Source: Lactiplantibacillus paraplantarum (lineage in GTDB: Bacteria; Bacillota; Bacilli; Lactobacillales; Lactobacillaceae). From it: a stretch of 64,000 bases of DNA. The notes beneath the pieces were generated by a model that worked only from the letters and a program-made list of their open reading frames with translations, did not search any database and was not told where the DNA came from. The DNA lies in NCBI RefSeq assembly GCF_003641145.1, contig NZ_CP032744.1:62001-126000 (forward strand), read 5' to 3'. Below, piece after piece: positions 21,825 through 39,765 of the stretch. A program made the translations under genes and the position numbers. Numbering within the stretch: position 1 is the stretch's first letter; every line of letters begins with the position of its first letter.

Positions 21825-21918
21825 TTGAGTTGTATTAGAATGGAATTAAGGTTTTCACTTTTTCGGGTGGACATCAATATTGGCATAGAGTTAAGTCTGC
21901 ACGGTGCTAGTTAATCTG

Positions 21919-22246
21919 CCATGAATCATGATTAAGACGTGCCATTTTTGTAAGTTCAAAAGCAGCCAGCTTAGGTCCGCTGGAAACAGTGCGAGTTAGC
22001 GTAAACTTGCTTAGTTAATGTGTCTTACGCCGACCTCCAGGCATTTCTGCCAATTGCCGGAACGTGGTGGGCACAGATTTGAGCCGAAAACCCACGTCTC
22101 AAATACTGGCCTTTCACTAACCAAGCACAGGACGCTTGCTAAGTGAAATTTCACCACTGGGCATTGTCAGAAACGCCTTCCAGTCGGGATAGCGTTCGAA
22201 TGGCTGACAAGGATATACCCAACTTTTGCTGAATTTGTCGTTGTTT
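21919..22246 (-). repeat. Structured ~300-bp element, copy A (minus orientation)
   Basis: This noncoding stretch is a diverged, inverted copy of 22395-22690. It can fold as a three-way junction. A long outer stem pairs 22030-22058 with 22159-22187. One hairpin pairs 22112-22126 with 22134-22148, and a second pairs ATTTGAG 22077-22083 with CTCAAAT 22098-22104. The hairpin arms differ in sequence from copy B but still pair, which points to selection on structure. Shared edges are AACGACAAATT at one end and TGGCACGT-TTAATCA at the other. It may be a structured RNA or a MITE-like mobile repeat. Confidence 0.65.
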
Positions 22247-22394
22247 TTCATAAACGTTAATTTTATCAATCAACTGTCAGATTGAAAAGGTCTTGTGATA
22301 ACTCACTATTTCTGAATTACCGTAGTAATAATTGAATATTTCGAAAAAGTGGAGAAGGCACTCTGATATTTAACTTAAAGGGTTCAGTATCAAA

Positions 22395-22690
22395 ATAGCC
22401 AACGACAAATTGTACTGAGTTCAGTGGCCGTTCATCAGCCATTCGAGCGGCTTCCCGACTGGAGGGGCTGGTGACAATGCTCAGTAGCCAAATTATTCTT
22501 AGCTGGAAGTGGGTTGCTTCCGGCTTAGAATAAGACTCGTATTTGAGACTGGGCGGGTTGTGCACGGGCTCAAATCGACGTCGGCTTACGTTCCAGCAAT
22601 TGTCACCCAGCCCCGGAGGTCGGAATCGGACGCGCATTGCTGACGAACAGGAATCCATCTGTTTGGCACGTTTTAATCAAGGTTAATGCT
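22395..22690 (+). repeat. Structured ~300-bp element, copy B (plus orientation)
   Basis: This is the inverted partner of copy A, about 150 bp away. The outer stem pairs 22454-22481 with 22595-22623. Hairpin 1 pairs 22493-22509 with 22517-22534, and hairpin 2 pairs ATTTGAG 22541-22547 with CTCAAAT 22569-22575. Sequence blocks shared with copy A include TCAGCCATTCGA, CCCGACTGGA, TGACAATG, TATTTGAGAC, GCTCAAATC, ACGTTCC, GGAGGTCGG and TGGCACGT-TTAATCA. The element lies just upstream of the iminopeptidase-like gene. Its nature is not established. Confidence 0.65.
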
Positions 22691-22733
22691 AAATAGCGGC
22701 TAGCATAACGCGTCAAAAGTATAAAATTTAGAA

Positions 22734-23636
22734 ATGAAAGTGAGTGGTATTTTGGACGTGCAAGAAGGTTACATGCCATTCCATGGCTATCAAACGTATT
22801 ACCGAATCGTGGGTGACCACTCTTCAACTAAAACACCACTAGTCTTATTACATGGTGGTCCAGGATCAACGCATAATTACTTTGAAGGTTTTGATGACCT
22901 GGCCGCTCAAACGAGACGACCGGTTGTGATGTATGATCAATTAGGTTGTGGACGCTCATCAATACCTGATGATGCGCAATTATGGCAAGCAACAACTTGG
23001 GTGGCAGAGTTACAGGCGTTACGTACGTATTTAGGTTTAGCCGAGATTCATTTGTTAGGGCAATCCTGGGGCGGCATGCTAGCTATTATTTATGCTTGTG
23101 ACTATCACCCCGAAGGTATTAAAAGCCTGATTTTAGCCAGTACCTTGTCCTCGGCCCAACTGTGGGCCCAAGAACAGCACCGAATGATTCGGCTAATGTC
23201 CCCGGTAGACCAGGTCGCTATTGCGGATGCGGAACGGCAGCAAAATTTTACGAGTGCCGCCTATCTGACTGCTAATCAACATTTCATGGAACAACATGCT
23301 TCGGGACCAGTCACTGATGCGGACCCCGAGTTTCTACGGCGATCGAAACATGCAGGAACTACAGCCTACCGTGTGGCATGGGGACCTAATGAATATAATC
23401 CAACGGGGACGTTAGCGGATTATGAATATACTGAGAAGTTACGCCAATTGCAGGTACCAACTTTAGTGACCAGTGGGACTGACGATTTGTGTACACCATT
23501 AGTTGCTAAGACGATGGTGGATCACTTACCCAATGCGACCTGGACATTATTTCCGCATAGCCGACACATGGCATTTATTGATGAGACGCCGGTCTATATG
23601 GCGCGCTTACAACGATGGCTGGTGGCGCATGACTAG
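22734..23636 (+). CDS. Proline iminopeptidase-family alpha/beta hydrolase
   Basis: The 300-residue product is a peptidase-family S33 hydrolase: oxyanion motif HGGPGS at 40-45, nucleophile elbow GQSWGG with S111, an acid in GTDDLC and the catalytic His in HSRHM near the C-terminus. A cap-domain region lies around 135-220. Such enzymes (PepI, PepR, PepL of lactobacilli) remove N-terminal proline from peptides in the cytosol. The start is uncertain: ATG at 22734 has no clear ribosome site, while an in-frame TTG at 22752 is preceded by AAAGTGAG. Copy B of the structured element ends about 45 bp upstream. Confidence 0.82.
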   Translation: MKVSGILDVQEGYMPFHGYQTYYRIVGDHSSTKTPLVLLHGGPGSTHNYFEGFDDLAAQTRRPVVMYDQLGCGRSSIPDDAQLWQATTWVAELQALRTYLGLAEIHLLGQSWGGMLAIIYACDYHPEGIKSLILASTLSSAQLWAQEQHRMIRLMSPVDQVAIADAERQQNFTSAAYLTANQHFMEQHASGPVTDADPEFLRRSKHAGTTAYRVAWGPNEYNPTGTLADYEYTEKLRQLQVPTLVTSGTDDLCTPLVAKTMVDHLPNATWTLFPHSRHMAFIDETPVYMARLQRWLVAHD

Positions 23637-39636: not shown

Positions 39637-39661
39637 GAGGTTAGCAATTGAATATTTTTAA

Positions 39662-39749
39662 ACACTAGGGGTGTCCAAAAATGGGCTGAGATGGTGCTGT
39701 AAGTACCGATCCCTTTGAACCTGTAAGCTCAAACTTGCGTAGGAAAGTG
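39662..39749 (+). ncRNA. TPP riboswitch (THI element)
   Basis: The conserved cores are present: CTAGGGGTGTCC, GGGCTGAGATGG, TACCGATCCCTTTGAACCTG and the closing GCGTAGGAAAGTG, which pairs with CACT at the 5' side. Binding of thiamin pyrophosphate would stop expression of thiM-thiD-thiE and the transporter through the terminator at 39766. Confidence 0.95.
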
Positions 39750-39765
39750 TCACAGCTAATGTTAG

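Follow-up and report, generated by a model that had tools for sequence, protein, structure and literature searches.

Introduction

MITEs in bacteria are for the most part regarded as junk bounded by simple ends. REP/BIME and BOX-type repeats are, like the element described here, intergenic, composed of inverted or mosaic units and present in tens of copies; by contrast, the present element is much longer, is associated with target duplications and contains a three-way junction. GOLLD, the name of which comes from Lactobacillales, and ROOL resemble it in being large structured RNAs, but the element is without a match to any Rfam family. Compared with MITEs of the IS982 family, the ends and target-duplication length of the element match those of the IS982 elements of the genus, and there is no long reading frame inside; the element differs in that it is long (up to ~1 kb) and is built on two conserved RNA-like modules, which occur also where IS982-type ends are not seen.

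MRSC-65-2, one of a set of 'mobile/repeat sequence candidates', is a structured motif often present in dozens of copies per genome, which its authors consider probably selfish (PMC11109978, main text). In being structured and in copy number it is similar to the module described here, but it occurs in diverse phyla and has a UYCCGG repeat, whereas in the samples searched the present module was confined to Lactobacillaceae; the string 'Lactobacill' is absent from the main text of PMC11109978. No description of the repeat was found in the literature searched, which covered few subscription papers and included parts of PMC2267715 and PMC11109978.

Here we consider a pair of inverted, diverged repeats in the window, i.e. 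the whole 64-kb stretch of Lactiplantibacillus paraplantarum DNA that was analysed. The reading that we favour, to which we give a probability of roughly two in three, is that the pair constitutes one IS982-type MITE, with two divergent, outward-facing copies (M and P) of a Lactobacillaceae structured-RNA module without a match in Rfam. A first-pass annotation of the window had proposed a new structured RNA class or a structured MITE as alternatives; both appear to hold, the RNA-like module being the cargo of the MITE.

Results

The element occupies 21897-22713 of the window (817 bp, no strand assigned), with its two modules facing outwards, M on the left and P on the right; its limits were set against 42 M-ends and 42 P-ends. 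The left terminal inverted repeat (21897-21913, minus strand) is a degenerate copy of ACGCRTTGTGCTAGTTA and the right one (22697-22713, plus strand) of TAACTAGCACAAYGCGT, both being located by the aligned ends of sister copies. The M module, a three-way junction for which outward is leftward, lies at 22030-22189 on the minus strand, where the stretch is identical in the orthologous copy in genome G258; the P module, a three-way junction for which outward is rightward, lies at 22454-22623 on the plus strand. The spacer separating them (22208-22434, no strand assigned) has 64 substitutions in 233 aligned bases compared with the G258 ortholog, and no conserved promoter was seen in it.

The first-pass annotation held that 21919-22246 (minus) and 22395-22690 (plus) are related and inverted, which is borne out, in that the M and P halves are inverted homologues, with repeat arms (I1-I4) that are 73-84% complementary and a blastn identity of ~67-68%. 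The pair taken there as the unit, 21919-22690, is present, but the true unit is larger, running from 21897 to 22713 between terminal inverted repeats, and is one of 48 such sites in the genome. The outer stems proposed there, 22030-22058/22159-22187 and 22454-22481/22595-22623, are part of the outer stem of the module, the inner part of which is in the covariance model. When the whole element is folded as a single strand, the M and P halves also pair with one another; our guess is that the divergence of the halves to about two-thirds identity would also avoid a perfect 300-bp palindrome. There is no long open reading frame and no transposase gene within 21897-22713, the longest listed frame being of 113 codons, antisense to P.

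Searches of the window's own genome (G000) with either half as nucleotide query gave 59 and 63 matches, resolving to 48 sites, of which 43 have traces of both halves and five a single half. In sites oriented with P forward, M is on the left, on the minus strand, and P on the right, on the plus strand; the two-sided copies span 291 to 1031 bp, as measured by matched ends. Terminal inverted repeats of the form ACGCRTTGTGCTAGTTA...TAACTAGCACAAYGCGT are present in the aligned ends (42 of each kind). Target-duplication counts rest on the 24 of the 43 two-sided copies in which both ends are readable: an exact 7-mer is present at the ends in 8 of the 24, compared with 0.04 expected from flanks of different elements, and an exact 8-base direct repeat in 5 of the 24, compared with 0 from mismatched flanks. 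A target duplication of 7-9 bp, as for an IS982-type MITE, is thus found for the family, but neither for the window copy, which has no clear target duplication, nor for the insertion-sequence copy L116 (see below).

When the joined flanks of the window copy were used as the query against relatives (21 genomes), they matched as one contiguous piece in G323, G243 and G287, in which the site is empty, and in two pieces <200 bp apart in G332, G273, G352 and G038; in G258, 841 bp, corresponding to the orthologous element, lie between the flank pieces. In the rest of the 21 genomes there was a single piece, no match at all, or pieces that lay far apart or on separate contigs. The terminal repeats, target duplications and empty sites together argue that the element family is mobile and, judged from these sequence features, the window element is a non-autonomous transposable element (MITE) of a family that has moved. 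With respect to neighbouring genes, 24 insertions are tandem, 13 convergent and 9 divergent, with 1 unread, i.e. there is no clear preferred gene context.

Derivatives with ~55, 211, 506 and 177 bp between the same end types (L119, L121, L122 and L247) contain little or no module and have 6-8 matching flanking bases; those of 55, 211 and 506 bp gave no match to covariance model R1 at E up to 0.01, although the 506-bp derivative does match the profile in part. A gene for a proline-iminopeptidase-like hydrolase (named as in the L251 record) is near a module three times, i.e. at 22734-23636 in the window, 5008-5892 in L139 and 4851-5756 in L251; the L139 and L251 products are 58% and 31% identical to that of the window. 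Because this hydrolase family is widespread, the recurrence may be due to chance.

A search of the genome for the terminal repeats gave ends outside the known copies, one pair of which, on contig C4, bounds a 964-bp insertion sequence (L116). Its 287-codon open frame encodes an IS982-family transposase (NF033520, 235.6 bits, cut-off 130; Pfam DDE_Tnp_1_3), and its ends differ from the MITE consensus by one base, close to the tip. The MITE thus has IS982-like terminal inverted repeats (ACCCGTTGTGCTAGTT in L116, ACGCRTTGTGCTAGTT in the MITE and ACGCTTGGTGCTAGTT in L236), and an IS982 element in G125 has the same type of ends. L116 itself is without a clear target duplication, but an 8-bp repeat flanks a copy in G360 that is 99% identical to it. 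We infer that the MITE is likely moved in trans by the IS982 transposase.

Each half of the element contains a three-way-junction module of ~140 nt, consisting of an outer stem P1 (inner part P1b) and hairpins P2 and P3. In the P module, the alignment and covariance model place P2, TTATTCTTAGC...GCTTAGAATAA, with a T.T mismatch, at 22493-22533 (plus strand) and P3, GACTCGTATTTGAG...CTCAAATCGACGTC, with bulges, at 22534-22582 (plus strand). Conservation extends to unpaired parts: CTCAG before P1b, AAA before P2, the T.T mismatch in P2, the P3 bulges, and CGTTCCA after P1b.

Alignment A1 comprises 76 of the 77 sequences left after near-duplicate removal from 162 of 199 profile matches (L140 was omitted as short), and in most of its rows, across five genera, the AAA before P2, the CGTTCCA and the T.T mismatch are retained. 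Alignment A2 consists of the 44 A1 sequences from genera other than that of the window, and covariance model R2 was built from these 44 sequences with a structure computed from those alone. A scan of the 64-kb window with R2 (default filters, E up to 5) found two places only, 22464-22616 (plus strand, E 4e-26) and 22040-22177 (minus strand, E 9.6e-21), corresponding to P and M. The first-pass annotation did not recognise the family, and no Rfam family matches the element at the gathering score. When seven loci were searched at E up to 5, the only match to overlap an element was below threshold (snoU25, 24.1 bits against a gathering score of 50, E 0.43) and lay in the L085 spacer. An ordinary TPP riboswitch is present elsewhere in the window (39657-39762), and an ordinary purine riboswitch is next to another copy of the element, outside the window (L084, 1176-1274, minus strand).

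In A1 (42 pairs), 96.6% of 3144 pair cells pair, compared with 72.9% in shuffled and 32-43% in slid controls, the shuffle test being inflated by relatedness and the slid controls, which keep relatedness, favouring a structure derived from the same sequences. Double changes are present at 35 of the 42 pairs (755 such cells); the number of further pair types, 91 against a shuffle mean of 88.8, is reached by 129 of 500 shuffles and so is not above them. In A2, 97.2% of cells pair, with slid controls likewise at 32-43%, and double changes occur at 33 of 40 pairs (434 cells); here too, further pair types are not above shuffles (218/500). Covariation beyond chance, as for a structured RNA, is thus present in both A1 and A2. 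The compensatory change that the first-pass annotation saw between the two window copies is far better supported by the whole family, with its double changes at 35 of 42 pairs, and a lack of significant covariation, which would have counted against that annotation, did not occur.

The non-Watson-Crick cells are informative as to strand. In P2 and P3, read on the outward strand, G.U is present in 114 cells versus A.C in 3; P1a and P1b have no G.U excess (G.U 17 versus A.C 21, 12 of the A.C cells being in a single column pair). The P2/P3 bias implies that the outward-reading strand is the one on which the fold is under selection, RNA being the simplest form for it to take. If the fold were instead a double-stranded palindrome maintained by repair, symmetry would be expected, which argues that selection in P2 and P3 acts on one single strand, the outward one; we infer that this strand is probably RNA.

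An iterated profile search from a three-sequence seed found the module in loci of six genera, and an exact pattern scan of GTDB species genomes gave 46 stretches, only in Lactiplantibacillus, Companilactobacillus and Lapidilactobacillus. Covariance model R1 matched in 117 of 397 sampled Lactobacillaceae genomes, representing 15 of 40 genera and including 17 of 21 genomes of the window's genus, in a survey using stricter filters with at most seven places scored per genome; the worry that no further homologues might exist was thus not realised. In an order-wide sample R1 matched in 12 of 295 genomes, all 12 being Lactobacillaceae, and in a phylum-wide sample in 1 of 299, the window's own. In the single genome G258 there are 57 module matches. 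The module is on all five plasmid records examined (from L. plantarum, L. pentosus and Ligilactobacillus salivarius); DNA matches had been found in 26 and 9 plasmid records, from which the five were drawn. Neither the element DNA nor the pattern was matched in phage records or viral contigs. On two Ligilactobacillus salivarius plasmids (L249 and L250), a gene for an ABC transporter permease/substrate-binding protein follows the module at a distance of ~200 bp, though the two regions may simply be homologous.

In L. modestisalitolerans a single module is present in a smaller element with the ends GGGTCTATGATATTTGGTGTTGA, both of which were found in 6 of 12 loci (263-382 bp). Target duplications there are exact and of 8 bp in L157, L167, L169 and L246, exact and of 7 bp in L154, and match at 7 of 8 positions in L166; there is none in L150. 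An identical or near-identical end adjoins ISL3-family transposase genes in L277 (L. modestisalitolerans genome) and in L269 and L280 (G227). The smaller element thus has the ends of an ISL3 transposase element together with an 8-bp duplication, as for an ISL3-type MITE. Like ISL3-family MITEs, it has the end GGGTCTATGATATTTGGTGTTGA in common with ISL3 transposase loci and 7-8 bp duplications; by contrast with the window element, it has one module rather than an outward pair. One type of module therefore rides two unrelated transposon types, IS982 and ISL3. In L243 (208-2708), two MITE-type ends of the L. modestisalitolerans kind face each other around a 399-codon frame in a composite-like arrangement; the frame is unrelated, and L243 was rejected as an autonomous ISL3-type element.

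Modules that neighbour one another at <1 kb are arranged outward in 44 cases, inward in none and in tandem in nine, in 105 loci drawn from two locus sets that overlap in part, L106 and L162, for example, coming from the same genome (the rows of L090, which duplicates L186, were omitted). Outward pairs are bounded by IS982 ends here and were also found in other genera at loci in which no such ends were seen, so the arrangement either predates this MITE or arose more than once. Tandem modules include three minus and one plus at G080:C4:201751-202473, two minus and one plus in L208, and several on the same strand in G134 loci (L098, L105).

In Companilactobacillus zhongbaensis, modules are single or paired, and some have no other module within 1 kb; a leader that is conserved in part and a C-rich tail accompany them. 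In 140-base windows examined for the unit ends, some exact direct repeat of 8-11 bases is present in 9 of 23 units (the longest are 11 in L139 and 10 in L158), at no common position and without a control. The larger inter-module intervals (L131, L133, L135 and L139) were rejected as candidates, their frames looking by eye like ordinary metabolic or transport genes.

Within genomes, copies were typed by blastn and duplicates removed; the broken-pair counts that follow come from related copies without a tree, and so do not represent independent events. In G000, the 43 P copies have 156 helix substitutions compared with the consensus, giving 9 broken pairs versus 96 by random placement (lowest of 200 trials, 75), and the 18 M copies have 1 versus 58. 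In G258, the values are 18 versus 59 random for 27 P copies, and 2 versus 72 for 24 M copies. Changes private to one copy fall in G000 at 7 of 76 helix and 13 of 44 loop sites in P and at 6 of 72 helix and 3 of 36 loop sites in M; in G258 the corresponding numbers are 11/76 and 11/44 for P, and 7/72 and 2/36 for M. A pair is broken by 14 of the 31 private helix changes. Private changes show no clear depletion in helices compared with loops, being rarer there for P but equally frequent for M, so it is doubtful that each resident copy is under constraint, while structure is retained along the lineages that spread.

Comparison of the window copy with its G258 ortholog gives 0 substitutions in 117 positions of the M core and 3 in 128 of the P core, compared with 64/233 in the spacer and 65/381 and 29/380 in the flanks. 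Partners were found for 15 of 30 G258 loci, corresponding to 14 sites common to G000 and G258, as L328 repeats L308; at these, 21 of 26 comparisons show the ortholog to be less similar than the best other copy in G000. The window copy gives a striking picture of purifying selection at a single locus, but this does not hold generally over the 14 shared sites and was rejected as a rule. At 5 of the 14 (L310/L074, L311/L075, L316/L070, L319/L062 and L323/L047), the interior of the element is flipped, with M and P exchanged; where readable (L310/L074 and the left end of L311/L075), the flank junction is the same, so the interior seems to invert between its arms.

Discussion

On the sequence evidence, the module probably acts as RNA. 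The mechanism that we rank highest, though only tentatively, is that the module acts in cis in any transcript running through, or starting in, the element. A transcript reading through from either side would contain a single module in the sense orientation, at the element's far end; because the copies point outward, the element would behave alike in either insertion orientation. The folded RNA may set a point of processing, stability or protein binding, so tagging the transcript for recognition by a protein or nuclease, and an intergenic insertion would thereby become tolerable. There is no fixed relation of insertions to genes, which fits no particular cis role.

The next most likely proposal, which we nonetheless regard as rather unlikely, is that the modules are independent small RNAs with their own promoters, acting in trans on mRNAs or proteins and merely multiplied by the transposon. 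The C. zhongbaensis modules that are >1 kb from others, with their partly conserved leader and C-rich tail, are consistent with this, but the spacer of the copies in the window's genome has no conserved sigma-70-type promoter: promoter-like hexamer pairs are present towards P in 11 of 35 copies and towards M in 10 of 35, counts that are without a shuffle control. The spacer also varies: of the nine sites that G258 shares in the same orientation, six have spacers of 60-76% identity, the other three of 93-99%.

Subterminal hairpins serve as single-stranded DNA in systems of the IS200/IS605 or attC type, and it is conceivable, though somewhat less likely again, that the fold matters as single-stranded DNA in the transposition or replication of the element rather than as RNA. 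The module does reside in mobile elements, and a substrate formed from one strand would also give a strand bias. However, it is carried by elements with two unrelated types of transposase, IS982 and ISL3, neither of which is known to need such hairpins. The derivatives with 55, 211, 506 and 177 bp between terminal repeats, with their 6-8 matching bases on both sides, also argue against such a need, although deletion after insertion is possible in these cases.

It is very improbable that the element is simply a decaying, functionless quasi-palindromic MITE, the 'compensatory' changes of which arose by hairpin-templated correction or gene conversion, since, although inter-copy exchange and arm flips seem to occur and about half of the private helix changes break a pair, correction acting alike on both DNA strands would not yield the G.U over A.C excess in P2 and P3, nor would it account for the unpaired AAA, CGTTCCA and T.T mismatch kept in most rows across five genera.

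Returning to the reading of the pair as a MITE with two outward copies of an RNA module, a broader proposal, which is possible but held with less confidence than not, is that the module represents a structured-RNA class of the Lactobacillaceae that unrelated DNA transposons have repeatedly acquired, that has multiplied to tens of copies in a genome and that is paired outward so as to work in any orientation, under RNA-level selection for a benefit to the element or the cell. If true, this would be a bacterial analogue of a SINE with a functional RNA. A module with strong covariation and no Rfam match, on two unrelated carriers and in 117 of 397 sampled genomes of a bacterial family associated with food and the gut, poses a well-defined problem, i.e. 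which protein or process sees the module RNA, and why transposons keep the module. It also provides a large natural set of copies with which selection on RNA structure inside mobile DNA may be tested.
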